A DNA stretch of 64,000 bases from Bryoerythrophyllum caledonicum. Its lineage: Eukaryota > Streptophyta > Bryopsida > Pottiales > Pottiaceae. Below are positions 1 to 37,100 of this stretch, one piece after another. The stretch covers positions 387,001 through 451,000 of the forward strand of contig OZ020518.1 in the NCBI GenBank assembly GCA_963971425.1. Reading direction: 5' to 3'. The notes beneath the pieces are model-generated. The model made no database searches. It was not told where the DNA came from and saw nothing but the letters and a program-made list of their open reading frames with translations. Numbering within the stretch: the stretch's first letter is position 1; every line of letters starts with the position of its first letter. The position numbers were made by a program, and so were the translations under genes.

Positions 1-819
1 CATAGGTTCTAACAATCCCCTAGTAAAAGTATTAACAATCCAAGGTTCAGGCATTCCATGATCACGCCATCGGTTTAACAAATTCCTAAGACGAGTATAA
101 TACCCTGCGATGGTCTCTGTAGGGTACATTTGAAAACTCTGTAATTGGTCTTGCAAAGTATTGTGGTACGCTTGCGGTCTAAACCTAGCTAAAAATGCAT
201 CTTTTAAAGCATCCCAATTAGCAGGTTTAGGATTTAAAGCAACATACCATCTTTGAGCTTCCCCTACTAGATTTCCAGGGAAACTAGTTATGTATTTATC
301 AACAGGTAAGTCATTTGCCGTAGCAACCACCTGAAATCTCTCCAAATATGAGTTTGGATCTTCTCCTAAGTCACCATAAAATATGGGAAAAGGAGCTATA
401 TTTAACATTCTATGATGTGCCATATTAACAAAATTATTTCTAACTGCTTCAGGAGTAGGAGGGGTTGAAGGTGATGAACTCTCGGTAGAACTTGAGGAAG
501 ATGAAAAAGTTGGAGAACTAGTAGAAAAAGGAAGTAATCTACGAGGTGGGGACCATCTAGATGACTCCGACGATGATGATGATTTGTTTTCTTCTTCCTT
601 TCTACTACTACTATTACTAGCACTTCCTCTCGAGGTACTACGGAGTTTTCAGTCTTCATATGGAACTCTATTTTCTAAGTTTCTAGGAGAAGGTGTAACA
701 TTAAAGATGGGATTGATTGTTAAGAATCTGAGTCCTTCCCACCTTTCTGCCCTTCTTCTATAACGTTCCGCTCGTGCTAATTTTTGTTCTTCTACTTTTC
801 CTTTTCCCTTAGGTGACAT
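1..819 (-). pseudogene. Ty3/gypsy-type gag, partial, one in-frame stop
   Basis: The minus strand reads as one gag frame from an ATG at 819 to the window edge. The N-terminus begins MSPKGKGKVEEQKLARAERY. A Ser-rich acidic linker follows, then a retrotransposon gag core with recognisable motifs: YLERFQ near residues 150-155, GEAQRWY, ALKDAFLARF, QLQSFQMYPTETI, LLNRWRDHG and FTRGLLEP. These match the Retrotrans_gag family, which forms the retroelement capsid. A TGA at 649-651 (codon 57) interrupts the frame, and the frame downstream is otherwise open for about 216 codons. A single C-to-T change (CGA to TGA) would explain it, which suggests recent inactivation or methylation-linked decay. Protease, reverse transcriptase and integrase would lie beyond the left edge. 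The gag family assignment is firm. Placing it in a Ty3 rather than Ty1 element rests on the gag type and the PBS-like site. Confidence 0.85.
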
Positions 820-877
820 TGACAGTTGCCATATGTAAAAGGATCTCTAACTCTCTTAAGCTAAAAACTCACTTATG

Positions 878-1162
878 TTAATGAAGACAAAGATATAATC
901 CTTCCTCTGTTAATCCTATTCTCTTGAAATCTTCTTTTTTATTCCTTGGATATTTATACAAAGTTATTATATCACTCATTTCTTGTGCACTTATCCACTC
1001 ATTTGCCACCGCTTCTCCTATCTGTTCATCAATCTCAACCTCTAATTTCTCTAACAAACGAGTGTCATAGGGTGGAACATGCGCGTAGTAATTTAACTTT
1101 CCCTTTAAGTTTACAATCAATTGAGTTCTTCTATGACTAGTATTGGGCCTCACCCTTCTCAT
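878..1162 (-). CDS. Extra ORF before gag (ORF c), unknown function
   Basis: A 94-codon open frame beginning MRRVRPNTSHRRTQLIVNLK and ending about 60 bp before the gag ATG on the same strand. It overlaps the end of the preceding ORF b by 26 bp in a different frame. That arrangement would suit reinitiation or frameshifting in a polycistronic retroelement RNA. Composition is mixed charged and hydrophobic. I see no domain I recognise. It lies between a PBS-like site and gag, where Ogre/Tat-type Ty3 elements are known to carry an additional ORF of unknown function. It could be a chance ORF, but its packing against its neighbours argues against that. Confidence 0.45.
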   Translation of the reverse strand: MRRVRPNTSHRRTQLIVNLKGKLNYYAHVPPYDTRLLEKLEVEIDEQIGEAVANEWISAQEMSDIITLYKYPRNKKEDFKRIGLTEEGLYLCLH

Positions 1163-1451
1163 TGTATAAATATGAATAGTGATGCCATGACGTTATAGTA
1201 AAAGGTTCTACTTTAAGAATAAAAGGTAATGGCTCCACTATTAACTCTCTAGGATATTGAAATCTGGTTAAAAGATGATTAATAATAATGTTTGTTTTTG
1301 GACAATGCTTATGTTCTTCTCTTAAGTGTTCTATTTCTTGACTTAAGAGATTAAACAATTTTAATTCATTGTATTTAATTTTTGAATAAACTATTAGTAA
1401 TCTTTTCAACCTAGTTCGTAATTCTTTTAAAGTTTCAACTGACGATTCCAT
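1137..1451 (-). CDS. Extra ORF before gag (ORF b), coiled-coil-like
   Basis: A 104-codon open frame starting MESSVETLKELRTRLKRLLI. The first 50 residues have a heptad-like spacing of Leu and Ile with many Lys and Glu (ELRTRLKRLLIVYSK, LFNLLSQEIEHLREE), typical of a short coiled coil. The C-terminal half is aromatic-rich (FTITSWHHYSYLY). It shares the strand and the pre-gag position with ORF c, whose ATG lies 26 bp before this stop. I do not recognise the family. The simplest reading is an accessory ORF of the retroelement. Confidence 0.45.
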   Translation of the reverse strand: MESSVETLKELRTRLKRLLIVYSKIKYNELKLFNLLSQEIEHLREEHKHCPKTNIIINHLLTRFQYPRELIVEPLPFILKVEPFTITSWHHYSYLYNEKGEAQY

Positions 1452-1682
1452 TTCTTAAATGCATAATGTCTTTAAATCAATCTCATCAAATTCCTTAGGA
1501 TCCTTTAAAAAGAAAGTAGGTAAAAATAAATGTTAAAGAAATAAAGTTTTTAAAATTAAAATTATTAAAAAAATTATAAATTAATAAATAAATAATTAAA
1601 CACCCTATTCCTTTTGACCCTATGGGTTGAGTTTGGTATTTCAACCTTCCTTTCTGAGCAAATAGAAATTGCAACTGATACT

Positions 1683-1949
1683 TTAAGTATAAATATCATT
1701 CTTGACAATTATCTCATTAAAACCCTCTCCGTTATTCCATACTTTGTTAAGAATGATTTGTTTTAACTCAAGAGGTAATGACTCAAATTTCTCCTTAAAA
1801 GACTTGTCTACTCGAGGATGAGCTCCATAGAATTGGAACCCCTGTCCGTAATAAGCAGTTTTGTAAGTTCTATACAAAGCTCCAAACAAGTATGCCCCAC
1901 CAAAGAAGTCACTCAAATTTCTCCGGTTGAACTCCCATGGAAAGGACAT
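1683..1949 (-). pseudogene. Extra ORF a, copy 1 (truncated duplicate)
   Basis: This 88-codon frame starts MSFPWEFNRRNLSDFFGGAY and is clearly related to the ORF at 2152-2646 (shared MSFPWE, YLFGALYR, AYYGQGFQF, KPF/KSFKEKFE and ILxKVWN blocks). After NDIYT it ends at a stop. Beyond that the nucleotide sequence is still alignable to copy 2 for about 80 bp but in a shifted frame, so copy 1 was shortened by a small indel. It then dissolves into AT-rich sequence near 1600. It lies on the same strand as copy 2, about 200 bp away. The function is unknown and no known domain was recognised. Confidence 0.6.
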
Positions 1950-2151
1950 GATTTCCTCAAGGAATTTTCCATATGCTTGAAATTGGTTAAATTTCTATCA
2001 CCAATTTTTAAGATTTGTTGAGAGAATGATCCTAATTTTTCAATTTTAATTTTAATTTTTCTATTTAGGTTGTGTACTCTCGTAAAGAATCAAAAATCGT
2101 GTGAGACGAGTTAATAATTCTCTTAAAAGTTTCTTTACAAGAATTCATAAT

Positions 2152-2646
2152 CTAAATACATAATAATCCAAAAGAAATAGATTCTGGATGACAAGGATCC
2201 CTACAAATAAAATCCGGAATTAAAACTTGACTTCTTAAGTTTTGCACGCCGTAGGTAAAAACATAAGTTTTTCTATCTACTTTAAAACCATTCCATGCTC
2301 CTAATCCTTTAGAAATTATGGGTTGGATTTGAAATTTCAATCGACCAAGTTGAGCAAACAAAAAGTGCAATTGATATTTTAAGTATAAATCACTATTCTT
2401 AACAATTAACTCGTTAAGTTGTTCACCCTTGTTCCAGACTTTACTTAAAATTATTCCTTTAATCTCTAAAGGCAATTGCTCAAATTTTTCTCTAAAAGGT
2501 TTATCAATCTTCGGATAGTTTCCAAAAAATTGAAAACCTTGACCGTAGTAGGCCGCTCTATAAACACGATATAAAGCTCCAAATAAATACGGCCCGTTGA
2601 AGAAATCACACAAGTTTCCTTCAACTACTTCCCACGGAAAAGACAT
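2152..2646 (-). CDS. Extra ORF a, copy 2, unknown function
   Basis: A 164-codon open frame starting MSFPWEVVEGNLCDFFNGPY. Features are aromatic blocks (YLFGALYRVYRAAYYGQGFQ), a charged middle (EKFEQLPLEIKGIILSKVWN), a hydrophobic stretch (YLKYQLHFLFAQLGRLKF) and a C-terminus with DFICRDPCHPES. It lies about 190 bp after the PBS-like site and is the first ORF of the element. A degenerate tandem duplicate follows at 1683-1949. I do not recognise the family. The two copies have diverged yet keep the same residues in the same blocks, which suggests that protein sequence was under selection before the duplication decayed. The position resembles ORF1 of Ogre/Tat elements, but homology to it is not shown. 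Confidence 0.55.
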   Translation of the reverse strand: MSFPWEVVEGNLCDFFNGPYLFGALYRVYRAAYYGQGFQFFGNYPKIDKPFREKFEQLPLEIKGIILSKVWNKGEQLNELIVKNSDLYLKYQLHFLFAQLGRLKFQIQPIISKGLGAWNGFKVDRKTYVFTYGVQNLRSQVLIPDFICRDPCHPESISFGLLCI

Positions 2647-2834
2647 ACTTCACTTGTATAGTCTCCCATGTACACTCCAATGTTTTAACCAACTTAGTTT
2701 TTTTAAGTTTTTGTTTTAATGAATCACTCATTAAATGCTTTTAATTTTTTCCAATTGATAGCTAATTTAAGCCATCAATATCTTTTTGAAGACACTTTTT
2801 CTAAATTAGAAACTACTTAAAATTGACGATACCA

Positions 2835-2852
2835 TCCCCAGCATGGTCGCCA
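2835..2852 (-). other. Primer-binding-like site
   Basis: On the minus strand this reads TGGCGACCATGCTGGGGA, six A/T bases inside a TG..CA boundary at 2859. TGG start, GC-rich body and this position are typical of plant LTR-element PBSs. From memory, the sequence resembles those of Ty3 Tat/Ogre-type elements (TGGCGACTCxxCTGGGGA). No tRNA search was possible here. Confidence 0.55.
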
Positions 2853-2858
2853 AAAAAA

Positions 2859-4140
2859 TGTAAACCGTAAATTTACACTTACGCAAAACACCCAAGACTC
2901 ACACAAGTTTCCATATGATTCTAAATTCTTCCCGGGATGGTCTGGCGTCTAATGTTTAAGTAATTTTGATCTAATTATCACATAAAAATGTTTTCTATAA
3001 TAAACTTAAAGCTATAATGCATTCTTTTACAGGTTTTGGGTTAAACAATCTACACTCTTTAAGGATTGGGAATTTTTATGTTACCCCAAGAAAAAGAGTG
3101 ATTACGACAAGAGCCTTGCTCTTGTCTTTCTTGTGTGTGTGCCCAAACCTCTAACTATGCCTTGCTAGGCGAATGGAATTTATCCATTCCTTAACTCATT
3201 GCTTTGTTCGTTTATTAATTCTTCTTTATAATTGAAAAGCTTACTTCATGCAATTCGCTCCATCTTTAATCACGTACGTCCACGGCTAATCTCTTAAGCT
3301 CCAAGTGGATTCCACATCAAAACACATTAACTTCAATAATCACACTTGTTAGAAGTTTAGGAATGATCATTTTTGAGATCAATACTCTAACACATACACT
3401 TTCAATCAAATTTAATTCCTTTGATTTAATCCACTATACATTACTCTTAAACTTAAAGTAATTTCATTCTTCTAAAATAACATTACTCTCTTTAACGCAA
3501 TTAATTCCTTAAGATTAATTAATGCACTTCAAATATAAGAACTCTTATCTTGTAATTTAATTATTATTATAAGAATTCTTAGTCACAAATATTTTTAGTT
3601 TTTTGAATATGTTTTATTTTCTTTCAATGTCACTTATTCAATAAGTGCAACATTAAATCTTCTTAAATTGTTTATCCATTTAAGATATTACAATCAATTA
3701 AAATTTGACTTCTTAATTATTAAGACTCACTTTCACAAGTCACATGTGCAAAGTTACTTAATTAATTAGAATCAATGGAATTTTACACAACACAATATGT
3801 ATTAACTTAAAAACTCTTACAACCATCGCAAGAATTTGCTAGCTCCAAGCTAGGACTCACAATTGCTTCTTCAAATGTGGTGAATTCAAAATGAATTCCT
3901 ACTCCACTTAAGCTAAAACTATGAAGAGACACTATTTCTTAAAAGGTTTCTTCCTTTTCCTTCCACCTCTTCAAGTTTTGCTTAAACCCTTTCAACTAAT
4001 TAAAAGGTGTGACTATTCTTTTAAGTCTTTTCTTTAAGTCCTTTCATACTAGCACTATTTTCTTTAAGCTATTTTAAGTTTTTCACTTATTTTTAAAGTT
4101 TCTCTTAACTTTTATCACTAACTATCTACTTTTTGAACTA
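2859..4140 (-). mobile_element. Probable 5' LTR (outer edge unresolved)
   Basis: The inner LTR end is placed at 2859, where the minus strand ends in TTTACA six bases before the PBS-like site. The region beyond it is AT-rich and non-coding, with no long frames, as expected for an LTR. I could not find a matching TG start or target duplication, so the 1.3-kb extent given is a minimum guess. The LTR may continue through the GC-rich tandem repeat to about 5 kb. The second LTR would be outside the window. Confidence 0.35.
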
Positions 4141-9410: not shown

Positions 9411-9770
9411 GTGCAAAACGACGGCGGGCCGTCCGCCGGTCGGACGGCCAGTCGGACGGCCACTCCGACGGCCGGTGGGCCGTCCGTCGATAGGCCGTCC
9501 GCCGATGGGCCGTCCGTCGATCAGACGGCCACTCCGACGGCCGATGAGCCGTCCGCCGATAGGCCGTCCGCCGATGGGTCGTCCGCCGATCGAACGGCCA
9601 CTCCGACGGCCGGTAAGCCGTCCGCCGATCGGACGGCCACTCCAACAGCCGGTGGGCCGTCCGCTCGATCGGACAGCCGGGTGGCCGTCGACCTGATCAG
9701 ACGGCCATCGCGCGCCCGTGCGATCAAATCGCGGCCGACCGATCAGGCGGACGGCCGAGGTGCCGTCTCA
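9411..9770. repeat. Palindromic GGCCGTCC/GGACGGCC higher-order repeat
   Basis: A dense array of 15-bp units of the type GGCCGTCCGCCGATG, alternating with CGGACGGCCACTCC. The marker CACTCCGACG starts at 9461, 9530 and 9599, a 69-bp higher-order period. A further, slightly diverged copy starts at 9638, 39 bp on, which is 69 minus two 15-bp units. The long frames on both strands here (Pro/Thr/Ala/Asp or Arg-rich) are products of the repeat. The base composition differs sharply from the AT-rich flanks. Confidence 0.85.
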
Positions 9771-10527
9771 TAGCCCCGACGGCAACGACCAATCAGACGG
9801 CCTAGCGCAATTTGACGGCTGCGATCTGGCCGCGTGGCACTTCGTTGAATCCGACGGCCCAGAAAACTTACCAGGGCCTTCCGTAAATGCATTTTACCCC
9901 CCCGGACGCTGCGTCCGACGTGACGTCAGGACGTCCTCGTCTTAAGACGTCCTAGGTCGCTCTCAGACCCCCAAGGACGTCGGATTGGTAACCCTGATGT
10001 GTAGGTCTAGAAAGAGTCCTCTTTGGTAAATTGTAACACTTGCTCTGGAGAATCACAACCGTACTTACTGGAATGTCGTTGTACTTCGGACTTATCTCTG
10101 CGTGACCGCGTCCGGAAGGCCATCCGGATGATGTGAGAGTACAAGTCTAGCAGCAGTAATCAATCACCGGTTAGCGGAGTAGGGAGAGTGGGTGTCCGGC
10201 CACTTAAAGTCACAAGGGAGTGGGGAATCTGGCCACTTACACAAAATAGGATCAGTGGCCTTCCGGTCACTCGTTTAAACCGTCCGGAAGATTCTTGGAG
10301 GAGGAACAAAGATAAATCAAACTACCTTCCGGTTGTCCGGAAACGAGTTTCGGAAGCCATTGTATAATTTCTAGAATATGGAAGGATCCGGATCCGTAGT
10401 AAGTGGGTGAATAGAATAGCTAGCCTAGGAACGAGTGATCGATAGTTTAGTTTTTGTTGGATATTCTGAGAAGAACAATAGATCTCTGTGGGCACGAAAC
10501 TGGAGCGGTATACTTTGGAAGCATTTA
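9771..10527. other. Spacer with TCCGG-rich sequence
   Basis: I see no gene. The first half is rich in GGACGTC and TCCGG words. It ends at the TA dinucleotide (10526-10527) that precedes the mobile element at 10528. Confidence 0.4.
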
Positions 10528-11396
10528 AGGTAAACCCCCCCATAACCGTCAAGTTAAGCAGTTTGCATATATGGAGAACCTAGATAATAATTAAATTATT
10601 TTTCAGTGATAGCCAATAGAATTACAATTTCAACCCAAGTGATTTCATATTTTTCCGATGTGTTATGAATTAGTTATGAATTTTCAAAGGCACATGTGAA
10701 GAAAACCGGGTGAGCGTCAGTAGGTGGGGGCCATGACCCTCCCACAAATGGCCTAAAACCACCAACAAGGAAAGTGGAAACCGGATATTATTCACCCTAA
10801 AACTAAATTCAGAAAATCCTAATTCCCTCTACTTGCGTGCGCAATGACGCATTCACTAATTTTGACAGCTACCCATGCCCATTCATGCCATGATGCAAAA
10901 CTGCCAATAATATTTGGCAACTCCACCCTAGAAAGAGCCGGTTTCTGTGGTAAGAGGAGCCCACAAACTCCATTTGTGGAGCCAATAATTCAGCCCACGT
11001 GGCACAAACGACTATTTCTTCATGGCCTTGTGAAGTATCCGTTTGGGAGTGGATCTTCGTGAGGAGTACGCCTGCTCCGGCATCTCTCCTGCTTTGTGTC
11101 CTCACTCCTCGTGTTCCACTCCGGGATGCAACATCGTCATCTTCCTCTCTGAGAATCTCCTCTTGGCTCCTGGCTCGGTGATCAGCGGCGGACCGTGTGC
11201 AGGGAGGATTGACAATCGAATCAAACGCAAACTTGGGGTGTGAGGGCAGGGTGAGTTGCAATTAGGTCGCATGGCGAGATTGACGTGTCCGAAGTGCGCA
11301 AAGCATGCTTTAAGGTAACAAACTTCTCCCATGCGTGATAGGATGTGAGCAGCTTCGAGGAGGTTTAGAGATGTCAGTTTGTTTGCGTGTGAATCG

Positions 11397-11511
11397 CAAG
11401 TTACGGGGATGGAGTGCGCCGCGTGCGCAGGCTCCATCGAGAAAGCAGTGAAGCGGTTGTCTGGCATCGAGGAAGCCACCGTCGCCGTGCTGCAGAACCG
11501 AGCGCAAGTTG
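11397..11511 (+). pseudogene. Heavy-metal ATPase fragment (HMA domain)
   Basis: The plus frame reads GMECAACAGSIEKAVKRLSG then IEEATVAVLQNRAQV. This is a heavy-metal-associated domain with the metal-binding GMxCxxC motif. It is closest to the N-terminal HMA repeats of plant copper P1B-ATPases (HMA5/RAN1 type). Only about 38 codons are left; the frame then runs into unrelated codons and a stop. There is no ATPase core. It lies inside the pogo-like element, in the same orientation as the other captured pieces, so I read it as transduplicated DNA and not a working gene. Confidence 0.75.
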
Positions 11512-11674
11512 TGTCGAGGCCAAGACGCTCGCTGACAGTGCCCGCTGCCTGAGGAAGTGAGAACGCTAAAGTTGGGTTTGCCAAAGTGGAGACAGGCATC
11601 TTATTTATGTAACGTTTTGGGGGTACGTCGTTCATCAGAATGGCATTTCTTATGCTTCACATGTTGCTTTGCAG

Positions 11675-12664
11675 GGGACTGAAGCTTTTTGCAGTGGAGG
11701 TGATCAAGTGGTGCGTGGGAAACATGGGTATGTCGGAGGCGACAACATTGGGCGCCTCAACATTCTCGATGTTTAGGTAACCAACTGGTTGAGTTCTGCT
11801 TCGTGCACCTGAGTGCTTCTTGATGCCCTCCTCAATTCGTAATTGAACTTGTGTTTCTTTCTTGCAGATTCAAATTCGGAGGCTACCAAAGCCAGTCATT
11901 GCAATGGTGAGTTAGTCTATGATTTTATGGTCTTGAGGTCCATATTAATTTTTCCTGATTTTTAAGAGAGTTATCTTAAGGCCTCGGTTTAATTTTATGC
12001 AACTTTGTGTGTGCAGGTGGCAGGCTATGCAGTTGGTGGAGGGCACGTACTTCACATGGTATGCGACCTCACGATTGCGGCGAAGAATACAGTCTTCGGA
12101 CAGACTGGGCCCAAGGTATACTTTCTATTCATGGAAGTGCAAATCAGAATTCCTAATCGAAATCATCTTCTGAAGTGCTCGTGCTAATAACTCTTTCTCC
12201 AATTTTCAGGTCGGTAGCTTCGATGCTGGCTACGGTTGCAGCATGATGGCACATCTGGTAAGCTTCTCTAACTAAGCTTTGTTTTATTTCAAGTCTGTGT
12301 TTTGTTACATGACTTGCAGCAACCATGTTGCCATTGCGGTTGGTGTTAAAAATTCAGGGATCTTAGTGCCATTTGCCCTTATTCCTCGGATGATCCTTTT
12401 TCAGGTTGGACAGAAGAAGGCACGGGAGATGTGGTTTTTAGCAAGGTTCTACTCTGCAGAAGAGGCAGATAAGATGGGTTTAGTCAACAAAGTCGTTCCT
12501 GTAAGTCTATCTTAATCCATGCTGTATTTTCCACTCAACTTTCAGCTGAAAAGGGCAACGATTTACTGATCATTTGTTGGAGTCTCAAACTGCAGCTGGA
12601 GAAACTAGAAGAGGAGACTGTTGTCTGGAGTCGTGAAATTTTGAGAAACAGCCCCATGGCGGTC
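11675..12664 (+). pseudogene. Naphthoate synthase (menB-like) fragment, six exons
   Basis: Six consecutive exons with GT/AG introns still in place: 11675-11776, 11868-11906, 12017-12115, 12210-12257, 12405-12500 and 12596-12664. Together they read as the crotonase-fold enzyme 1,4-dihydroxy-2-naphthoyl-CoA synthase of phylloquinone synthesis. Markers are [79 protein letters not shown] and LEKLEEETVVWSREILRNSP. The first exon ends in TAG where the family has a Gln codon (CAG), a premature stop at the splice junction. The N-terminal exons and the end of the protein are missing; after NSPMAVR the frame becomes unrelated and stops at 12730. Retained introns show that genomic DNA was captured, not a cDNA. 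Confidence 0.88.
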
Positions 12665-12889
12665 CGGTCCGGATCCGTCTACCACGCATTGTACGCGTTC
12701 TTCGATTGTGATAATGTCGGCCTTCCATGATTTTCCAAGTAAGTTGGTCTCTACGACTAACGGCCATTCCACGACATCTACTAAAGCTTTTCCATTATGC
12801 TCATGCTGAACTTACTCTTCACGATCGAAGAACGCGTACAATGCTTTCCCCTTTCCATTATGCTTATGCTGAACTTACCCTAAACCTAG

Positions 12890-13376
12890 GAGCTTGCTCT
12901 TGCTATGAAAAAACTCGTCAACGAGAAGCAGTTGTCGCTTCATCAGGTAAACTTCCATCTACATTTTTTTCCAGAATCAAATTGCTTGTTCATCCTGGTT
13001 GAGTTCTCAAACGCCGGGGAGTGATGCACAGTATTTTCGTGGATGTAATTCTATCTCTATTTCGGGTTTCTGAGCACTGATTCATTTGTTTTGGTAGCTG
13101 CGGACAACAACGATCCGGAAATGTGTGATTATATCGAAGGAGAAATCTTGAATGAGCAGGTATATCTACTCTTGGTTTTGGTGATAGTTTTTTAAACCTT
13201 ACACCGATCATGTCTTCATTCAAATATACAATTATTAAGCATTCCATAGATGCCCATTTATTGCTATTGTCTAATTCCTCCCACTTCTTCCTTTCTGCTT
13301 TCATCGTTAAATTACTATGTGTTGATTATGTTGTTTGGACATTGCAGGTGTGTATCACTTTGATTTGCTGCTGCAA
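12890..13376 (+). pseudogene. Ferritin fragment
   Basis: Three short blocks in order match plant ferritin, the plastid iron-storage protein. Block 12890-12946 (ELALAMKKLVNEKQLSLHQ) is preceded by AG and followed by GT. Block 13098-13159 (ADNNDPEMCDYIEGEILNEQ) likewise has splice sites. Block 13347-13376 reads GVYHFDLLLQ. The usual sequence between the last two blocks (IKKI...RRVGKGH) is absent, so there is an internal deletion. The phase between the first two blocks is off by one base. I identified the family from the conserved order LALxMEKLVNEK - NNDPxxxDFIExEFLxEQ - GVxHFD. It lies between the naphthoate synthase and DDB1 pieces in the same orientation. Confidence 0.75.
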
Positions 13377-13643
13377 GCGTTAACCGGGTTGGAATTCACG
13401 CCCATGCAAATCACGACTACATTCTCCAGATTCCAATATCTGTAAGCGTTCTTTCTTTGTGGTGATAATCCTATGATTTGAAAATGTTTGGCTTTGATGA
13501 ATATATGCTCTATGTTGCCAATATCTTTATCTTCAGGTACGACATACGTTAAAAGGGCATAGTTATGTGACTTCCATGTTATCAGTTTTGTCATAGTAAT
13601 AGATAACTCCGTGCTCACTTTGAGAGTGGGTATTTTGTCACAG

Positions 13644-14089
13644 GGTTACAGCCTTGAACGTAGAGCCACTTGGGGAGACATCGGCAGCATCGACTTTGAC
13701 CTACCTTGACAATGGTGTTGTCTTTGTTGGTTCCAGCTACGGTGATTCACAAGTCTATTTCTCCTAAACATGTTTTCCGTTTTTATCATGTGAGATTTTT
13801 GTATCATGTGAGATTTTTGTATCCTTTTAGATGAAAAAGCTGGTTTTTGATGATATTTCGGATTTATTCTTCTATTGAATCGATGGAGATCATGCTGTTA
13901 GTTATGTGCTTTCATCCTGTTTTATGTTGGTGGTTTTTATGATTCTTTTACCATATTATATCCTGCATTTCGGAACAGGTCACAGCAGGCTCTTTGCGTC
14001 TTGTTGATGCAAAGACTAGGAGAATTCTCACCGAGTGGAAAGCTCCAGCTGCAATTTCTATAAATGTTGCTACTGCAAATGCATCTCAG
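13644..14089 (+). pseudogene. DDB1 fragment, two exons
   Basis: Two exons match DDB1, the beta-propeller adaptor of CUL4 ubiquitin ligases. The exon at 13644-13751 reads [20 protein letters not shown] then [16 protein letters not shown]. The exon at 13979-14089 reads AGSLRLVDAKTRRILTEWKA then PAAISINVATANASQ. In the full protein these segments are separated by well over 100 residues (end of propeller A to propeller B). The intervening exons are therefore lost, and the 227-bp gap here is a rearranged or shortened intron. AG acceptors are present. It is the last recognisable captured piece before the transposase. Confidence 0.85.
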
Positions 14090-14589
14090 GTCTGCCCTAG
14101 TGCTGTGATACTTAAGGCTACCATTTATAAAGCTAGAATTTTGTGAATTCGGCTACGTGATGTTGCTCAAAGACCTAATATCTTATTTTTTTTGTTTTTT
14201 GTTTATTGGCAATGGTTTTTTTGTTTTCGGTTTTTGTTTTTTTTGTCTTCCTGGTTGTGCTTTCGTTAGAATAGAGTCTGTATCCCAAAGGTTGTGTCTG
14301 ATTCTCTGATGCCACACATTAAGGATCAACATAGGCTTTTAACACCACATTTGTGTACGTGCATGATAGATTCACTACATGAGTAAAGAGGTTCACAGAT
14401 TGGTTGAGGAGAGATCAACTAGCACAATTGTGAAAGATAACATGTCCGATTCAGTCTCTCTCTCATTAAGCACCTAAAAACATCAAGAGCCACGATGATC
14501 AAGTTCAAAGCAGACTGCAATTTCTGTATTCACAACAGACTACACTACCTTACTGTCGCTGCCCCTTTCCTCTCTTTCCTCCATAACTA

Positions 14590-17289
14590 CTATTGTCCTT
14601 GTTCATTTCTTGAATAGAATGTTGTCCTTGTCCATTTGTTTAGCTGTTGTTGATTCATTGACCATGCGTAGCTCCATGGAATATGATGGAATCTTGGAAA
14701 GTTAGGCAGGTCTATGCCATCTTCACTTTTGGCCCTCTTTGCTTTTAGCCTTGCTATAGCAATCTCTTGATTTCGCTTGCAGGAGGGTGGTTGGAATCCA
14801 CAGTGAGGAGCAAATGGTGTAGGAACACCACCTTGTTTAACCAATCTTTGAAGTTTTTCTCCAGCCTCTCTGATTGCTTTAGGACTCCATGCTTCGTTGA
14901 ATATCTTCTTTGCCTTCATGTCTTCTATGCGTTGAATTCTTGCTTGAGCCTTGAGGACTTTGTCCTCCATCCTCCTCCCTTTGGCAAGTGCTGCCGCTTC
15001 TCTTTTCCTTTCTTTTTCTTCCATTGCCTCAGCTCTTTTTTCTGCAATATACTCTAGAGTTTCACAATGTTGCTCTGAAGTTAGGATGTGTGATTTGGAA
15101 TAGTCAACCAATGGTTGTGCTCTTGTCCTTGGTGGTCGTACTACTTGTTGAGGTAAACGTAAGAAATTGCTAACATGCTCTTGTCCTAGTTGTGCAAAGT
15201 CCATGTCCTGGCTAGATGGCGGAGTGCAAAGATCTCCTTCTCCTTCCACATCAACATAATAATGTGTCATGTTTTCCTGGGTGGAAGGCCCTTCCTCGGC
15301 GAGGATCTCAGATATGGCAACATCCACGGTAATGTTTCTAAATCCTTGACTAGGCCCCATTTTTTTTTCCATTGCATGCCCATCTAAAGGCCATATTCCT
15401 GTGGCTCGAAATCCTGATTTGATGTTGTCTGTTGTCATGGCTTTTTTCATTGCAAGTGATACCCACTGTGCAATATCTTCCTTCCTTGTTTTAAGTCCCT
15501 TATTTGTCATACTCCATATATCCCGATATGCCCTGAATGCTGTCTTGAAAGGTTTGAAAACCGCCACATCAAGTGGCTGTAATGCATGTGAAGTGTGGGA
15601 GGGTAAGGTTAACATATCTAACCCTGCATCTCTTGCTTTCAAAATCACTTCCATTGTAACATGAGAGTTGTGGCCATCTAAAATCATTAGATGTCTTCTT
15701 TCAGGTGAAATACCTCCTTTCTGCTCCATGGCCTTGATGAAGTGGTCCATCCACTTGTTGAAGAGGTATGATGTCATCCAGGCATTTTCTTGCATTGCCA
15801 TCGTTGCTCCATGTTCGCATTTGCTGATGTAATCTCTTTTTCTCCTCATTCCTTTGAAAATGTAGAAGTTAGGAATGCTCCCCCCTGCTGCGTTTATACT
15901 TGATAATACCGTTAGACCTTCTCTTTCACCTGGTACTATAGTATGCACTGATCTAGTCCCTTTTTTTGCTAGCACTCTTGCTTGTCCATTGCGATATTCT
16001 TGACATCCGCTCTCATCCACGTTCCATACTCTTTCAGATGTGTAGCCATTTTCAGCATATAATTGAGCCAAGTTTTGATAAAAACTTTCGACATTTGATG
16101 GTGTCAAGGCCCTGGCTCTATCCATCTCTAATGCTTGTGGCGTTCTCATTGTGAATTCAGGATGTCTTTGCTTGAACCATTGTAACCAGCTCTTTCCGGG
16201 AATTCCATTCTTGAACGCAGTGACACAGTTCTGGGTCATCTCCGCCACTTTCAATTTCAGTTGTTGCACGGTTAAAGGATGGCCCCATTCGGTCATTTGT
16301 TCAAGGTAATGTACTAAAGCTGCCTCTTCCTCTTGTGATAATACTCCTTGAGGTCCTTTCTTTCTACTTCTTGTTTTCCCAATGAGATGATCTCTTAGAG
16401 ATGTCCTTGGAATACCATAGAAATCACCTGCTGATTGCAAACTCCACCCGTTGTCCACTGCCTCAATTGCCTTAGATAGAGCTTCATTAGACCAATTTCC
16501 AGTGATGTTTTTGCTTACCTTACAATGTTTGTCCTTCTTTTGCAAGGGCTCCATGATGTTGATATGTGCTAGAGCTGGCCGCTTCCTTGGATGCCCGCCA
16601 CTCCGGTTGTTGCCATGTTTGGTTAGATCTCCTTCCTCTCCAATGGTCTTGTTGTTTTCATCATCCGCCCATGTATGTATATGCTCTTCTTTTGAAGAAG
16701 TGTCTTCTCTATCTTGTGTCGGCCAATCATGTGTTTTGTCTCCATCCTCCATGTCTGCAATCCCACTATCAGCTCTTACATGATCCTCTTGATGTCCTTG
16801 GATCACTGCTGTGTGCTCAATATAATGCTGCGCCTTTCCTTTCCATCCTTGTGCTTGTCTACTTAGCATTTGTTGTGAATTCTTGCTCCCCTTGCCAAGT
16901 ATCTTTGCTCCCCTTTGCTCCAACATCCAGTATGCATCGTTGTCATTGTCTTTGCTTGAAGGTTCCTCATCTTCTTCTTGATATTGTGTGTCTTCCTTTG
17001 CAGGATCTTCTTCTTCATCGCTTGTGTGGCTCCAATCCTCCATGGTCCTTTGATGGGTTGATCTTGATGATTGTCTTTGTGAGAAGAAATGACCGTCATC
17101 ACAATCATCATCACTAGCTTCTTCATCTGCACGATCAAACAAAACTTGGTGGATTAGTTTCTTGCTCAAGTTGCAATATTCACTTCCAATTGCTCTACTT
17201 CTATCTAGTTGACCTCTCTCCTCCCTCTTTCCTACTCTTCCCTCCATTACTTTGTCTCTCAAGATTTGAGCACCATAGGAAGTCCTCAC
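14590..17289 (-). CDS. Pogo/jerky-like DDE transposase, intact
   Basis: An uninterrupted 899-codon frame. Residues 1-250 are acidic and low complexity (EEDPAKEDTQYQEEDEEPSS) and probably disordered. A CENP-B/psq-type helix-turn-helix follows (NWSNEALSKAIEAVDNGWSL, YGIPRTSLRDHL), then a second Tc5-type DNA-binding region (LVHYLEQMTEWGHPLTVQQL). The DDE_1 catalytic core follows, with WNVDESG (first Asp), LMILDGHNSH (second Asp) and LQPLDVAVFKPFK (third Asp). The spacing between the last two Asp is 35 residues, a DD35D arrangement. The C-terminus is Lys/Glu-rich and helical. Members cut and paste DNA at TA sites, which fits the TA-flanked ends at 10528 and 17746. No stops or frameshifts are seen, so it may be active. 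The start codon within the acidic region is uncertain, because ATGs nearer the HTH (for example at MEPLQKKDK) are also possible. Confidence 0.88.
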   Translation of the reverse strand: MRTSYGAQILRDKVMEGRVGKREERGQLDRSRAIGSEYCNLSKKLIHQVLFDRADEEASDDDCDDGHFFSQRQSSRSTHQRTMEDWSHTSDEEEDPAKEDTQYQEEDEEPSSKDNDNDAYWMLEQRGAKILGKGSKNSQQMLSRQAQGWKGKAQHYIEHTAVIQGHQEDHVRADSGIADMEDGDKTHDWPTQDREDTSSKEEHIHTWADDENNKTIGEEGDLTKHGNNRSGGHPRKRPALAHINIMEPLQKKDKHCKVSKNITGNWSNEALSKAIEAVDNGWSLQSAGDFYGIPRTSLRDHLIGKTRSRKKGPQGVLSQEEEAALVHYLEQMTEWGHPLTVQQLKLKVAEMTQNCVTAFKNGIPGKSWLQWFKQRHPEFTMRTPQALEMDRARALTPSNVESFYQNLAQLYAENGYTSERVWNVDESGCQEYRNGQARVLAKKGTRSVHTIVPGEREGLTVLSSINAAGGSIPNFYIFKGMRRKRDYISKCEHGATMAMQENAWMTSYLFNKWMDHFIKAMEQKGGISPERRHLMILDGHNSHVTMEVILKARDAGLDMLTLPSHTSHALQPLDVAVFKPFKTAFRAYRDIWSMTNKGLKTRKEDIAQWVSLAMKKAMTTDNIKSGFRATGIWPLDGHAMEKKMGPSQGFRNITVDVAISEILAEEGPSTQENMTHYYVDVEGEGDLCTPPSSQDMDFAQLGQEHVSNFLRLPQQVVRPPRTRAQPLVDYSKSHILTSEQHCETLEYIAEKRAEAMEEKERKREAAALAKGRRMEDKVLKAQARIQRIEDMKAKKIFNEAWSPKAIREAGEKLQRLVKQGGVPTPFAPHCGFQPPSCKRNQEIAIARLKAKRAKSEDGIDLPNFPRFHHIPWSYAWSMNQQQLNKWTRTTFYSRNEQGQ

Positions 17290-17802
17290 AAACTAATATT
17301 TTGGAATCCAAAATTCCATTGCAAACTGTGTTGTACATTGCAAACTGTGTGATGGGTTTGGAGGCTCATGCTTCATTAAAGCTTCTCTTTAGGTGGCCAA
17401 CTACCTTTGTAATATGCTTTTTTAGGCCTAAAACCAACTTTGCCATCTACTTAAAGCTGTTGTAATAACCACATGTAGGCGTTGGTTGCCAGCCCTATTT
17501 CCGCCACCTTGTTCTCCATTGTTGTCATGAATGTCTTTCGTTACCAAATTCATTTTTTGCAATAAAAAATGTATCTTCTATTCAATTACCCCTAAAACCA
17601 TCAGCTTAGAAATCAACTGCCGCTACTCATGCCTTTTGCTACCGGCGCTAAATTAGGATGTTGGTTACTTGTGCAATTATTGACGGTTTCTAGTGAAAAA
17701 CTAGCTGTCGGTCTTGGGATATTGCCGGTTTTAGGGTTGACTACCTTAGTGACGAAAAAGTGCAATCCGGAGGAATACTGATCCTACGAACTGCAACACC
17801 CC

Positions 17803-18125
17803 TCAATGAAGGATTCTCGAAGTGAGCACATACCTTCTCCCCGCGTCGAAAATCCGTATACATCGCTCCACATCGTCGAAGTCCACTTCTACAGCCTTCC
17901 CTGGATGGTGCCATTGCACTCGTTGGAGACTCCGTCTAGTAGCTCCTGGACCATCACGTCGTCTCTGAAACCCCATGTCTGATCCCGGAATCCGAAACAA
18001 CTCATCCTCTTTAGATCCGCATCCAGCGCTTTCCAGTTGCTCTCGGATTCGGGAATCACCGGAACCACATTCCGGAGGTTCACGATCGATTTAGCCCTGC
18101 TTTTGGTCGCCTTCTTCAACGTCAT
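17803..18125 (-). CDS. Unrecognised ORF pair, possibly first exon of a lost gene
   Basis: An ATG at 18125 opens a 78-codon frame (MTLKKATKSRAKSIVNLRNV, VPVIPESESNWKALDADLKR, FRDQTWGFRDDVMVQELLDG) ending at 17889. A second frame overlaps from 18000 to 17803. Codon use looks coding-like (higher GC than the flanks), and GGTATGTG after the second frame could be a splice donor, so one frameshift or intron could join them. I do not recognise the protein. It lies just outside the right end of the pogo-like element. Confidence 0.3.
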
Positions 18126-22714: not shown

Positions 22715-22945
22715 AGCATCTGGGGCCGGGCGCGCACAAAGGGGGCCGGGCGCATACTCTATGTGGCCAGACGCGCACGCTGTGGGCCAGGCGCGCACGT
22801 TGTAGGTCGGGCGCGCACAATGTGGACCGAACGCGCACGCTTCCAATCAAAAGCGCACGCTCTGGGCCGGGCGCACACACTGTGGGGCCGTGGGCGTACG
22901 CTCTAGGGCCGGGCGTGCACAATGTTTGGGCGTGCGCACTAATTC
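22715..22945. repeat. GGCCGGGCGCGCAC repeat cluster
   Basis: About nine loose units of GGCCGGGCGCGCACnnTGTG spaced 20-25 bp apart, in an otherwise AT-rich stretch. Related units lie in both terminal repeats and at 24262-24345 and 26375-26705, always within the 21197-30568 element. Confidence 0.75.
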
Positions 22946-26374: not shown

Positions 26375-26705
26375 GCGCATGCCCCCTGTAGGCCGCGCGC
26401 GTACGAGATGGGACGGTCTCGCGCGTACCAATCATGGTCTTGCGCGTACGAACTAAGTGGCCGGGCGCATGAGTTTTGAGGCCCAGAGCGCGCGAATGGG
26501 GGCCGGTCGCGTTGGAACATTGGCCTCGAACACGCGAATGAGGGTCGAGCGCGTGCGCTTTGAGGCCGGGCGCACGCGAATGGGGGTCCGGCGCGTGCCT
26601 TTAGAGGCCTCTCGCGCGCGCTTTGGTGCCGGGCGCGCGCGAATGAAGGCCGGGCGCGCACGAACAGTGGCTGGGCCAACAGTGGCCGGGCACGCGCGAA
26701 CAGTG
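26375..26705. repeat. GGCCGGGCGCGCGCGAA repeat cluster
   Basis: At least ten units of GCCGGGCGCRYGCGAATGGG type, strongly CpG-rich, lie upstream of accessory copy B. Repeat-derived open frames occur on both strands and are ignored. Confidence 0.75.
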
Positions 26706-29994: not shown

Positions 29995-30380
29995 CGCAGT
30001 ATTCGACCGCGCGCCCCCGGCCCCTAACCGCGCGCGCCCGATAGGCAGGTGCGCGGGCGACCCACAATGGTACGCGCCAGGCCCGTAACGCTGCGCGCCC
30101 GGCCCTAAACCGCGCGCGCACGATAGGCAGGTGCACGTATGACCCACAGTGGTATGCGCCAGGCCTGTGACGCTGCGCGCCCGGCCCTGAGTGCTACGCG
30201 CCCGGCCCTGATGCGGACGCGCCCGGCCCTTAGGGGTACGCGCCCGACCGTGTATGTATGCGCCCGGCCCTAAATCGTACGCGTCCGGCCCTACATGAAC
30301 GCGCCCGGTCCAGATTGGTACGCGCGCGGCCCCAAATGCTGCGCGCGCGGTCCGAAGGCACGCGCCCGCCCCTTGATGTG
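29995..30380. repeat. GGCCGGGCGCGTAC repeat cluster by right end
   Basis: About fifteen units of RGGCCGGGCGCGYA (minus orientation) spaced 20-30 bp, merging into the right terminal inverted repeat. Two copies of a longer unit (GCGCGCGCRCGATAGGCAGG, TGCGC...GACCCACARTGGTA) lie at 30016-30075 and 30110-30165. Confidence 0.75.
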
Positions 30381-31178: not shown

Positions 31179-34100
31179 CTACTCAAAATCTTGTGCGTTT
31201 TTCCAATATTCCTTCACAAGTTTTGTAAACAGGGATTGTGGATCCTCCAGAAGTCGAAGTGGTGAGTTGAACTCTGCCAATGTACCTGCACAACCACCAC
31301 CAAATCACAGCTCTGACCTTCAATCAAAGCCTCATTGGAAGAGGTCTCACCTTTATACAAGATCCATGAGAAAATGGAAGACAATGTTGATAGGAAGCAG
31401 GGGACGTTACCGTCGGTGAGGGCGAGCACCATGTCGCTGTCGACAACGGTGGGGATGCGGTGGGCGACGGTGACGACCGTGCAGTCGTGGAAGTCGCAGC
31501 GGATGAGCTTCTGGATGATGGCGTCGGTGGTGGAGTCGATGGACGCCGTGGCCTCGTCCAGCACCAGGATGCGGCTGTGCTTCAGCAGCGCCCGCCCCAG
31601 ACAGAACAGCTGCCTCTGCCCCACGCTCCAGTTCCCACCCTCGTCCGCCACTGCAGTTCGGGACACGATACTAAACGGTTTGCCACAACAATCCCCATGA
31701 AGTGCATGAGGTGATCATCTGATACAAAATGGTATTGAAAACACACTTGAGCTCTTAAACCGGTGGTCATAATGTTACCTGGGGCATCAAGTTTCTCAGG
31801 CATGGACTGGACAATATCAGCCAGTTGACACTTCTTCAAGGCCTGTAACGTACATATCAAATTTAAGAAAACTCGATACATGATCCACATGTGAAGGCAT
31901 CACCATTGGCATTTACGGAAGGACAAGACTCATGATAAAAATGGTTGTGATCAAGCGGCAGCAACTCACCTCCCAGATCTGGCTGTCGTGGTGTTCGCCG
32001 AGAGGGTCAAGGTTTGATCTCACAGTTCCCCGGAAGAGGGTGGGCTCCTGTGGGATGATGCCCAAACGAGACCGCAAGTCCCGAAGTCCAATGGTGGTGA
32101 TGTCGAGCCCGTCGATGAGAATGCGGCCTCCAGCAGGCTCCACCAGACGGAACAGGGCGTTGATCAGAGTGGTCTGAAGCTCAATCACAGTCACGTGATA
32201 AGGAGATAAATATTTATTAACTTGAATGAACTAGATTGTCTCCTATGCCAGAATAACACAGCGTGATTGATGTACCTTTCCAGAACCAGTTCGTCCCACA
32301 ACCCCAACTCGCTGGCTTCCTTCAAAGGTACATGTGATGCCTCTCAAAACAAGCGGAGCTCCAGGTCTGTACCGTATCTGTACCCGAGAGATGACACCCA
32401 ATCTAACGTCAATGCAGCCTGCCTTGATGAAGTTTGGCAGATCCAATATCATTGACGTTACGTCCAGTAGTTATTTTCAAGCAACGGTCCTTGATTCTGG
32501 AACATGGAGTGAAGTCCACAATATAGGTCTTGTTCTCATAACTTGCACAAAGATACCTAGTCCATAATGAATTACCGTCGTAAGTAATCTGGTCAATGTC
32601 GAAGTATGCGTTACCTGCAGGTTTTGTAGCTCCACCTTGCCTTTCATAGGCCAAGTTGGCGATGGACGGTTTGTTTTAATGATAGCGGGGCTCTCGCTCT
32701 TGACTTTCATGTACTGTTGTACACGCTCCACAGAGACAATATTGTTTGCCAGCTGACAAACAAACTGCGTAAAGAATACTAAGACACCATTTAATGACAA
32801 GCCGTATATCAGAGACAGGCCCGCGTATGATCCTGCAAAACAACATCAAAGTTAATCCTTTCTTTGCAACACGAACGCGGTGAAATGGTTTTTGCACGAG
32901 ACTGGTGTCAGATATTTCGGAAAACCTCACCGCCACTGCTATTATCTGAAGGCAAGACCACCATGAGGAGGGCAGAGGACGCCAAAATGATGGCGCACAC
33001 TGTTTCCAACCGCAGCAACAGCCACTCATACGCCACAAAGGTGTGGAAAAACAGGCCTGCATCAGCATCCACAAGATCCAGGTTCTTCCTTTGAAACTGT
33101 GGTATCTTCTCAAACGCACGGATTGTCATGGCTCCGCTGATTGTCTCGCTGAAGTTGTTGAGAATTGGTGCCTTTGTGGTGCCGTTCATCCGCATCAGCT
33201 CCCGAGCAGAAGCCAAGTAGTACTTCTACACGGTTCACAACATTAGATCCAGAAAGTCGCCTACAACAGTAATTTGGGAGTCATGTGAAACAATTACCTG
33301 TAGCCATCTGACCACAATGAGCAACGGGATGACAACGAGCAGCACTTGGTATGTGACACCTGCAATGATCACAACGACACCTACAATTTCGAGGCAGATT
33401 TGGGAGACGAACGCAAACGCCACGGGAACATCAATATCCAGCAATTGCATATCAGATGATATCTGGAGAGCATCCAAACAACCAGTCAGGATGATCACAT
33501 TTGCTTGGAGAAAGGCAACAGAGTGGATCTACGCCTTACCCTGCTGATTATTCTCCCCATGGGAGTTGAATCAAAGAATGACATGGGAGCTTTGAACAAG
33601 CGCGTGGTCAAGAGATGGAAGAAGTTGGTTGATGCGCGTGAGCCCAGCAGAACACTGAACCGTGACCTCAGGAACACAAAGACTCCACTCGTGATGGACA
33701 GGCTTGCAAAGACGCCAATCAGGACAGCGTCGCTTGTGCCTGGATCGGTCACTTTGGTTGCCATCCAGAAGTTGGCTGCAATATTCGCCACGACGAAGAT
33801 GGCTTGAGAGATAAAGCCTGCCCACCACAATATCCAGCCATTTGCCACTCGGATGTACTGGAGATAGATCGACCACCCGTGGTCGCCGACCTCACGCTCT
33901 TCCTGCTGCGTCAGCTGCGTTGCGGGGAGTGCTACACCTGGTTCCTTCCTAGACAAGTTTGATTGACTCAGCGCAACCAGCACTTTCTGAGTTTCAGACT
34001 CTGTCCTGTCTATCTTCTCAAGCTTCTCCCTCACTATGTTATGATGGTGGACAGTGCCCATGGCATCTTCATGGGCGTTTATGAGTTGCTTGAACCCGCG

Positions 34101-37100
34101 GCCTTCTTGCAGGAGTGCATTGTACGTCCCTGATTCTGCTATCTCTCCTCCTTCCATCACCTACACTTAAGTTCCAGATGTTAAAGGATTTCGAGCATAA
34201 AAGCCAAAATAGTATAGAATTGGATATTAAATCTTGAATCATTGAAGCGTACCAGAATGTTGTCTACAGCATGAAGAAAATCAACTTGGTGTGTCACCAG
34301 GATGACCGTCTTCTCTTTCAGGGCGCCGATCACACAGTCCTGAGGTGTTTTCAATGAACTGCATAAGAAATTTTGTGCAATGCTGGGTGAATGTAAGGAT
34401 GACGTGAAGCCAAATTGCTGAGTTTTACCTTGAAGAGTGTGGCAGCGGTGTGTGCATCAAGTGCGCTGAACGGGTCGTCCAGCAAGTAAACATCGGCATC
34501 GGCATACACGGCCCTTGCGAGCTGAAGGCGCTGCTTCTGGCCTCCGCTCATGTTAATGCCCCTTTCTCCGATCTCTGTCTGGTCCCCAAACGGAAACTGA
34601 GAAATGTCCTGCTCCAATGCGCATGCCTTCAGCACTGAACCATAGCGTGTGTATTCCAAGGGAAGTCCGAAGAGGATATTTTCCTGGATGGTGCCGCCTT
34701 GGATCCAAGCACTCTGGGCTACATATGCAAGCCTCCCTGATACAGTTATCTGGAAGATTGAAAAGACAATGGAGTCACCATACAGTTCAATTGTGAACAC
34801 TTCTAGATGTGACGTTAAAGACACAACATTGGTGCTTACCTTCCCAGAGACTTTTGGAATCTCACCCATGATGGAATACAAGAGCGTGGACTTTCCGGAC
34901 CCAACTGCTCCACACACAGCCACATGGTCACCGTGCTTGACATCCAGGTTGATGCCCCGAAGAGAAGGCTTCCCCTTCTCGCCAGGCTGCCAACTTAGAG
35001 TTGCATCCTGCATTCTGACTGCGCAGTCCTCGTCGTGGGCGCGCTCCACACATTTGTCGAGGTCGTCATCCTTGAGGAACCTTCCAATTCGACCGAGCGA
35101 TACTCCGACCTGTATAGTGGCTGCAAGGAGATCAGGGACTATGCGGACGGGCTCCTGGATGAGGCGGAACGCCGAGAGCGCGGTGAAGACCACTGCAGGG
35201 GAGAGCCGGTGGCCGAGCAGGACGTAGACACCGAAGGTGATGGAGGAGATGAACACCGGCGTCGTCCAGAATAAGATTGTGCCGAAGGACCGTGTCTTGT
35301 TGAAATTCGACAGCCAGTGGAACTCATTCTCTCGCAGCTTCATCATCCGCTCTTGGAACTCATCCTCCCATGCCTGCGTACACACAGTTTTGGTTTTTAC
35401 GGTCTAGTCATTGCCAAAGGACTTGTTACAGAGAGACAGCGACAGGCAAACCTGGAGCTTGATGATCTTGATGCTGTTGAGTATTTCAGTTGAGGCTCGA
35501 ACACGCTCATCCTGAGCTCCCATCAACTTGCCTTGATACCGCTGCAGAGCTTGGGCAAAGGGGATATTCACCAGCACTGTCACGCCCACCATGGCCAGCC
35601 CTGCGAAGGTGGCCACTCCGAGCGTGTAGAACAGGACGGCAGACGCAATGATCAGCGAAAGTGGGGCTGTCCAGATCTGGTGGAAAAACCACGCGTATTC
35701 ACCAAGGCGGTAGCAATCCACCGCCACATAGTTCACAATCTCTCCAGCTGCATGCCGTGCCCGAGCTCCACTTGATAATCTGGACAGAAACTCGTATTCA
35801 GTCCACCGATCGAATCTGAAGTGATTTCCGCATTGAAATGTTGATGGATCCCTGTGCATAGTACCTGAGTTGTTTTTGGTAGATGGTGGCGATGAGGCCT
35901 GTCCGCACCTTCATACCAACCGCCCTGGATCCCGCATACCAGTGCCGCTGCAGCAGCGACTCCAGGATCTTGCACGTGAACAGAGCTGCCGCGAGGGCAT
36001 ACCCTTCGTGGTGAAAGAGCTGCTCCCCGCTCTCGTACCTGATGAACAGCTGCAGGATCAGTGGCCCAAATGCGAGCGCCAGGGTCTTTCCCAGAGCGCA
36101 AAACGCGTTCAGCGCCATGGGCTTCCAGTACACCGCAGCCATCGCCCGGAACACGGATTTCTCCTCCGTCTGCTCTTCCCATGCCTGCTGGAACTTGGCA
36201 GCGGCCGCCTCCGCCTGGAGCTCCTCGCTCAAGGGGGGCACATCATCCATCTGCAGAGGGCGCTTGTTGCCGAGGGCGAGGAGGGGGTCTAGCCACGTGA
36301 AGAGCAGAGTGCTCACGTGACCTGCACTTCCATACGACGATTCCGTTGCAGCTCTCTTCTCGCCCTGGAGGAGAGGCTCGGTAAGCTCCCCTTTGTGTTG
36401 CGCATCCCGAATCGCACATGCAAGGAGCAGGCATGCCGCAGGCCACGAAGCAAAATTGAGGACAACCTCCAGAGGATTCTCGATCATGCCGAGGTTGGTG
36501 AGGGAGAGAACGGCAGCTAGTGTTGAGAGGAGGAACGTGAATGTCCACCATGTGTAAGCCAGTTTCTGTGAAGGATTCTGCAGCCTGGAGAGTGCATGTC
36601 AAGAATCCACGGCTATTCAAGCCCCTGCTTATGTTACAGTGTCAAAAGCTGGAGTAACGTTGGATCTTTTAGCGGCTTTACGCAAGATAGCCAAAGTACG
36701 TTTAACCAATCGAAATGAGATAATTGCTTACATTCCCGGTGAAGGCCATAATTTGCAAGAGCATTCTGTGGTTATGGTTAGAGGGGGCAGAGCGAAAGAT
36801 TTGCCAGGTGTAAAATACCATTGTATTCGAGGAATTAAAGATTTGCAGGGAATACCGGGTCGTCGAGGCAGATCTAAATATGGTACAAAAAAACCCAAAG
36901 CATTCTAGTTTTCGTACGTACCTGATTCTTAAGGAAATGGCGATTGTGATCCAAGCCACTGCATGCACCAAGTAGTACAGAAACTGACCCTCCTGTGATG
37001 GAATGAAGTAGAGGTGTACCACTGCAACCACCATGTTTGCCAGTCCAACGAGTCCACAGAGCACGGCAGTCGCCTTGGGCCATGTCGGGGAAGGAATTCT

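Follow-up and report, generated by a model that had tools for sequence, protein, structure and literature searches.

A transposase-bearing pogo-type element carrying nested fragments of at least five donor loci in a plant-like genome

The 64,000-nucleotide stretch of DNA analysed here (the window; C6:387001-451000 of a 437-Mb plant-like genome) contains, at positions 10528-17746, a single 7,219-bp pogo-type (DD35D) element flanked on both sides by TA. At least five donor loci have contributed the pieces found between its two arms: a locus at C3:17.2 Mb, an HMA-domain gene, a ferritin, a naphthoate synthase and DDB1. Sister elements elsewhere in the genome hold pieces of different donors in the same slot. 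We consider it likely that this is a cut-and-paste element with its own transposase gene, the interior of which was rewritten in several rounds by serial gap filling, with renewed transposition thereafter.

At the left border a TA at 10526-10527 is followed by AGGTAAACCC from 10528 (the edge reads TTTA and then AGGTAAACCC), whilst on the right GGGTTGACTACCT ends at 17746, ahead of a TA at 17747-17748 (the edge reads GGGTTGACTACCT and then TAGTGACG). The flanks, 10055-10527 and 17747-17804, belong to a diverged repeat also present within another copy of the element, L035 on contig C2, which was the source of an empty site: the repeat there reads GGAAGCATTTAGTGACGA, with GCATT-TA-GTGACGA at the site itself, and its counterpart in the window is GGAAGCATTTA, the element and TAGTGACGA. 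When the window flanks are joined, 383 of their bases, 327 from the left and 56 from the right, align over the insertion point in L035, the BLAST pieces having 68% and 83% identity. The empty site and the TA on both sides hence mark the 7,219 bp as one insertion. An earlier reading of this DNA from its sequence alone (the sequence-only reading) had placed the borders and their TA flanks at exactly these coordinates, and had inferred that gene fragments, transposase and ends formed one element; that inference holds. It had also suggested seeking an empty site in a relative; the one found here is in the related repeat within L035. From our reading of the alignment, the terminal inverted repeats (TIRs) are imperfect and about 26 bp long. 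The left arm is 582 bp, its first ~390 bp being common to short copies of ~560 bp, the transposase arm is 3.19 kb, and the captured pieces lie in between. The parts of the element are as follows, with donor places in contig coordinates:

10526..10527, no strand: left TA target-site copy, from the empty site in L035
10528..11109, plus strand: left arm including the left TIR, 86-88% to long sister elements
11108..11274, plus strand: two pieces of the C3:17.2 Mb locus, no Pfam match
11266..11514, plus strand: HMA-domain gene piece, donor C15:1391217-1391466, 94%
11519..11606, plus strand: ferritin locus piece 1, donor C7:7719797-7719884, 94%
11605..12667, plus strand: naphthoate synthase piece, between ferritin pieces, donor C14:6933214-6934289, 94%
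12673..12811, plus strand: ferritin locus piece 2, donor C7:7720211-7720349, 96%
12812..12888, plus strand: scrambled filler of local inverted and direct copies
12889..13446, plus strand: ferritin locus pieces 3 and 4, donors C7:7720776-7721085 (92%) and C7:7721389-7721627 (87%)
13437..14159, plus strand: DDB1 in two pieces, donor C3:7176852-7178503
14160..14559, no strand: older captured block, shared as a whole block with element L035/L050 only
14560..17746, minus strand: transposase arm including the right TIR, 94.8-95.6% to four long sisters
14590..17289, minus strand: predicted pogo-type transposase open reading frame (ORF), unbroken, 899 codons, DD35D, from Pfam matches and triad
17747..17748, no strand: right TA target-site copy, from the empty site in L035

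E-values for the matches of the named pieces to their donor places range between 1e-25 and 0, the DDB1 and ferritin pieces having further matches elsewhere. The four named genes all lie in sense on the plus strand, opposite to the transposase, and retain intron sequence and splice sites. This single orientation, the introns and all four gene identities were already part of the sequence-only reading, and each identity is borne out on its own ground: the HMA fragment by a domain match ('copper ATPase' being that reading's own term for it), naphthoate synthase by its best match in PDB (dihydroxynaphthoic acid synthetase, E 1e-54), DDB1 through its donor, and ferritin through its donor locus only, window 12889-13446 having no Pfam match. 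What that reading missed were the donor at C3:17.2 Mb, the interleaving of donors, the filler at 12812-12888 and the older block at 14160-14559.

The layout of the pieces is nested. The naphthoate synthase piece, which we read as five exons plus introns, follows the first ferritin piece and precedes the other three, with all of these pieces collinear with the donor order on C7; a piece from C15 lies on each side of this ferritin and naphthoate synthase set, the right one being only 67 bp long at 88%. Within the filler, 12819-12844 is an inverted copy, 26 bp long, of C7:7720224-7720249, and 12852-12881 is a 93% near-copy of 12789-12818. Of the two pieces nearest the left arm, 11108-11191 is 96% identical to C3:17199188-17199271, and 11195-11274 is 86% identical to the region of C3:17197756 and likewise to C4:14009380. 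The DDB1 pieces (13437-13801 against C3:7178139-7178503, 97%; 13817-14159 against C3:7176852-7177195, 98%) omit 943 bp of the donor, which retains coding sequence that the captured copy skips, and there is an 18-bp tandem duplication at their join; a further match, at 85%, is to a place on C12. The block at 14160-14559 has short matches to C12:9281727, C10:14099666 and C15:1388807, of which those at C12:9.28 and C10:14.10 Mb are uncertain and were excluded from the donor count. A 7-base motif at 14546, evaluated as a remnant of a right end, occurs 14 times in the 64 kb on both strands and was treated as chance. As a separate observation, stretch L022 has a DDE_3 transposase fragment at about bases 21-221, ~1.3 kb away from the portion of the naphthoate synthase donor that was captured.

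The transposase ORF comprises 899 codons counted from a GTG, or 885 from the first ATG, has no internal stops and matches DDE_1 (PF03184), HTH_Tnp_Tc5 (PF03221) and HTH_psq (PF05225), all over the curated Pfam cut-offs. Its catalytic triad is D425, D538 and D574, with 35 residues separating the last two, in agreement with the intact DD35D transposase of the sequence-only reading; of 13 sequences aligned, one (P0008) has histidine in place of the third aspartate. DDE_1 in combination with CENP-B/Tc5/psq-type DNA-binding domains, the DDxD spacing, the TA duplication and the TIRs place the element in the pogo superfamily, for which spacings from DD29 to DD59 are given in the available part of a published survey (PMC7386202). 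The best homologue is an unnamed protein at 55%, the nearest named ones being from Sphagnum (moss) and Adiantum (fern), and a PDB sequence search with the transposase returned no match. Only in the window copy is the ORF open throughout among the five long copies compared, the four sisters each having at least one stop or frameshift. Between 44% and 54% of mismatches to these sisters fall at third codon positions (24, 24 and 53 across the three positions for L023), and non-synonymous codon changes outnumber synonymous ones in every one of the four comparisons. As evidence of past constraint, this pattern is weak at best.

To survey other copies, the first 373 bp of the element were used as a query, giving 41 matches from the 40 scored of 2,157 candidates, a lower bound; for long copies, 40 of 86 candidates were scored. 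Twenty other stretches were fetched, making 21 copies with that in the window. Both ends occur together in 17 of the 20 (13 short copies and four of 7.05-7.48 kb), a recurrence that the sequence-only reading had offered as a check on the element. Counting the window, the right end falls within the stretch in 18 of the 21 copies; of the remaining three, L025 is cut by the contig end, and the right parts of L030 and L035 lie outside the fetched stretch. These 18 copies fall into eleven of 550-583 bp, two of 759 and 975 bp, and five, including that in the window, of 7,051-7,482 bp; TA is found on the left in 13, on the right in 16 and on both sides in 11. The four long sisters match the window element at 86.7-87.7% over its left 582 bp and at 94.8-95.6% over its right 3,187 bp, with the middle unlike. 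A shorter copy on C12 has 961 bp of fetched middle that match neither the C3 locus nor L024 (offsets 626-4021).

Some of these stretches are themselves duplicated: L005 and L006, both on C2, are identical over 3,373 bases, flanks included, and are recent or assembly duplicates, and the first 940 bases of C552 (L025) equal the last 940 of L026, again a recent duplication or an assembly duplicate. The window also contains a related inverted-repeat element that is only 355 bp long (63365-63719), with ends TA-AGGTAAGCCC and GGGCTTACCT-TA and relatives in L007 and L010, and an inverted left-arm-like stretch at 62122-62284, about 81% identical to the initial 162 bp of the pogo-type element.

The middles of the sisters are mosaics in their own right. 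L030 has a contiguous 1,040-bp piece of a locus for a filament-like plant protein (FPP), C7:16787765-16788804; the family match exceeds the curated cut-off in L035 only. In L024 the FPP locus is broken by 127 bp from C3:14468602-14468729, with additional pieces to the left matching C11:22.90, C8:22.10 and C7:9.81 Mb; in L040 it is broken instead by 1.13 kb matching C6:2928925-2930057, and the C8 piece is longer than in L024. The donors of the family amount to eleven loci (C3:7.18, C3:14.47, C3:17.2, C6:2.93, C7:7.72, C7:9.81, C7:16.79, C8:22.10, C11:22.90, C14:6.93 and C15:1.39 Mb), six of them (C7:9.81, C7:16.79, C8:22.10, C11:22.90, C3:14.47 and C6:2.93 Mb) placed by search only. All five donors named by family (HMA, naphthoate synthase, ferritin, DDB1 and FPP) are in sense orientation (two-sided chance 0.06), which is only suggestive of a bias to the sense strand; a sub-threshold PAP2_C match agrees with it, and a sub-threshold RING match in L035 is on the other strand.

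The whole mosaic of L024 is shared with L023 and L026 at 97%, with different flanks that define three sites; a fourth place, on C2, duplicates one of these exactly along with its flanks and was excluded from the count. Hence at least this mosaic moved after capture. The mosaic of the window was found once. The sequence-only reading had made it a refuting point if gene pieces lay outside all other copies: captured pieces do occur in the sister slot, but they are other pieces, and searches with the window's own set found it in no other copy save for the ferritin pieces, which match L035 on C2 at 93%, and the 14160-14559 block in L035/L050, so that movement of this exact mosaic does not follow. 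Amongst three-way informative sites in the ferritin pieces, the window agrees with L035 at 19 and with C7 at 12, and C7 agrees with L035 at 20; some indels are common to the window and L035, and these could equally be changes on C7.

Divergence from the donors gives some indication of the order of capture. Substitutions number 23 of 316 for C15, 56 of 775 for ferritin, 39 of 1056 for naphthoate synthase and 18 of 708 for DDB1. By Fisher tests, ferritin is distinct from both naphthoate synthase (p 0.0009) and DDB1 (p 0.00004), and C15 from naphthoate synthase (p 0.013), with no difference between naphthoate synthase and DDB1 (p 0.22). Since donor genes differ in their rates of evolution, these sequence comparisons support, and do not prove, that the inner naphthoate synthase piece is younger than the ferritin surrounding it. 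Eight junctions scored by exact runs consist of one 2-bp overlap, one blunt join and six with 3-77 bp between the pieces; the second C3 piece was omitted from this scoring, its alignment being gapped, and is spanned by one of the eight (74 bp). The joins carry local inverted and direct duplications (the 26-bp inverted copy, the 30-bp near-copy and the 18-bp tandem). Such filler resembles the product of error-prone, template-switching end repair, as in plant filler DNA.

In the mechanism we propose, the element would break or excise, and repair would restore its ends, with a sister or homologous copy as template, but fail near the middle; the repairing strand would then switch to an unrelated place in the genome, and the subsequent joining would leave behind a host fragment and short filler. 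Later breaks landing in earlier filler would produce nested layers, and as both ends survive, the altered element would be able to move again. The retention of the ends, the replacement of the middle and the presence of new fillers within old are in keeping with gap filling. A bolder extension, which we advance only tentatively and regard as doubtful, is that a self-mobile pogo element acts as a serial exon collector, excision-repair cycles overwriting the middle whilst ends and transposase survive, such that a lineage gains and discards sense exons and spreads candidate chimeric genes. Within that extension, an older piece may, by its similarity to the donor, guide later repair to that locus again, as more than one piece comes from each of three donor loci (C3:17.2, C7:7.72 and C15:1.39 Mb); erosion of one longer capture would also account for this.

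Several observations weigh against serial gap filling with renewed transposition as set out here. Breaks inside a resident element would leave scars similar to those of excision, and for single-copy cases in animals a published study, in the part available, favours breaks in resident elements (PMC8277862). With its mosaic in single copy, the last captures of the window element may have occurred in place. Some donors may themselves be carried by elements, and C4:14009380 lies 2.2 kb from transposase fragments. The outermost layer does not appear older, divergence of the C15 and ferritin pieces being alike (p 1.0), and strict microhomology is scarce at the junctions. Finally, the best match to the left arm is 91%, among the 40 of 2,157 candidates scored, against about 95% for the right arm, hence the element may be a recombinant between element lineages.

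The strongest competitor, to which we give a small chance, is that captures took place without transposition, ectopic DNA having been used to patch breaks in resident elements, with no movement of the window mosaic as a unit. The single occurrence of that mosaic fits, and the same account is preferred for the single-copy Pack-TIRs of animals (PMC8277862, part available), but the mosaic at differently flanked sites in L023, L024 and L026 moved after it was captured. Fusion of neighbouring elements, in which two nearby insertions are mobilised together with the DNA between them, has been published for Pack-CACTA and other Pack-TYPE elements including rice Pack-Mariner (PMC8903248, in the part available), and L027 and L026 have additional arm-like copies nearby. 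It is nevertheless very unlikely here: at least five places, spread over four contigs (C3, C7, C14 and C15), supplied the pieces of the window element, every piece still occurs at its own locus, and the pieces are interleaved and nested. A similarity search of the window detected no element arm between them, locating arms only at the ends of the element and at 62.1-63.5 kb.

Origins outside DNA-level capture by one element are harder still to credit. That the fragments are host gene debris beside a transposon, or an assembly artefact, is barely conceivable given the empty site, the TA on both sides, the recurrent paired ends and the different filling of the same slot in other copies, even though the assembly does contain exact duplicates (none, as far as seen, involving the window copy). 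Nor is it plausible that retro-copies of spliced RNA were pasted into the element: the sense orientation of all four named genes would suit such an origin, but introns and splice sites are kept, and the naphthoate synthase piece is nearly as similar to its donor over 702 non-exon columns (95.9% identical) as over 354 exon columns (97.2%). Unspliced RNA may have served as a capture template.

Elsewhere in the window, GC-rich tandem repeats with GGCCGTCCG-type units lie directly to the left of the element (9435-9706), with further GC-rich arrays at 22724-22915, 26549-26705 and 30011-30373. ORFs on the minus strand at 33495-35385 match the membrane region and ATPase domain of ABC transporters and possibly represent a host gene.

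How TIR transposons acquire host genes is debated, the proposed models including neighbour fusion, the filling of gaps as breaks are repaired, and template switching at stalled forks (PMC8903248 and PMC8277862, in the parts available). The present family looks like a readable time series, running from a contiguous capture, through two sister lineages with different interrupting donors, to the window's own nested set, with matching donor loci persisting. Hence the gap-filling model becomes directly testable.

Rice Pack-MULEs, which differ from the window element in belonging to the Mutator superfamily, carry pieces of unrelated genes, exons and introns included, within a TIR element. Similarly, Tgm-Express1 of soybean, a CACTA element, has five unrelated gene pieces with exons and introns in one TIR element (PMC1947982, part available). 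Nearer to pogo, the sequence-only reading knew of little capture by Tc1/mariner-pogo elements. This understated the record, as Pack-Mariner (PMC8903248) and TcMariner Pack-TIRs (PMC8277862) are in print. Our open-access literature search found no pogo-type element keeping its transposase while carrying nested pieces of at least five genes. Rice Pack-Mariner elements, with Stowaway-type ends, resemble the window element as Tc1/mariner-type TIR elements with host gene pieces in a plant; the example in the available part of that paper has one gene piece of 260-280 bp, with fusion proposed, as against at least five nested donors here (PMC8903248). The window element, with host gene fragments inside a TIR element, agrees with Pack-TYPE and Pack-TIR elements in that respect, but Pack-TYPE elements are defined there as non-autonomous, from which its predicted 899-codon transposase ORF sets it apart. 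In animals, 115 TcMariner Pack-TIRs are reported, such as Pack-Tigger1 of gibbons (PMC8277862), Tigger being a family of the pogo superfamily (PMC7386202). They share ectopic filler attributed to template switching under a gap-filling model, and according to the available part of the study nearly all are single-copy and placed in resident elements, whereas the moss family described here has serial multi-donor capture and a sister mosaic that moved afterwards.

As regards pogo elements in plants, the available part of a 2020 survey places them in land plants only as Lemi, in 23 eudicots, and gives pogo lengths of 1.20-5.20 kb, compared with 7.2 kb in the window (PMC7386202). Lemi is alike in its pogo-type transposase, TA target sites and short TIRs, a comparison by features. 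Another survey, in the part available, notes two Selaginella sequences (PMC7325037), and the terms mariner, Tc1 and pogo do not occur in the available main text of PMC13317346. Gene capture by Tc1/mariner-type elements is therefore known, and what is new here is its transposase-bearing, multi-donor and nested form, which adds pogo elements with a transposase gene, from a plant-like genome, to those with multi-gene capture.

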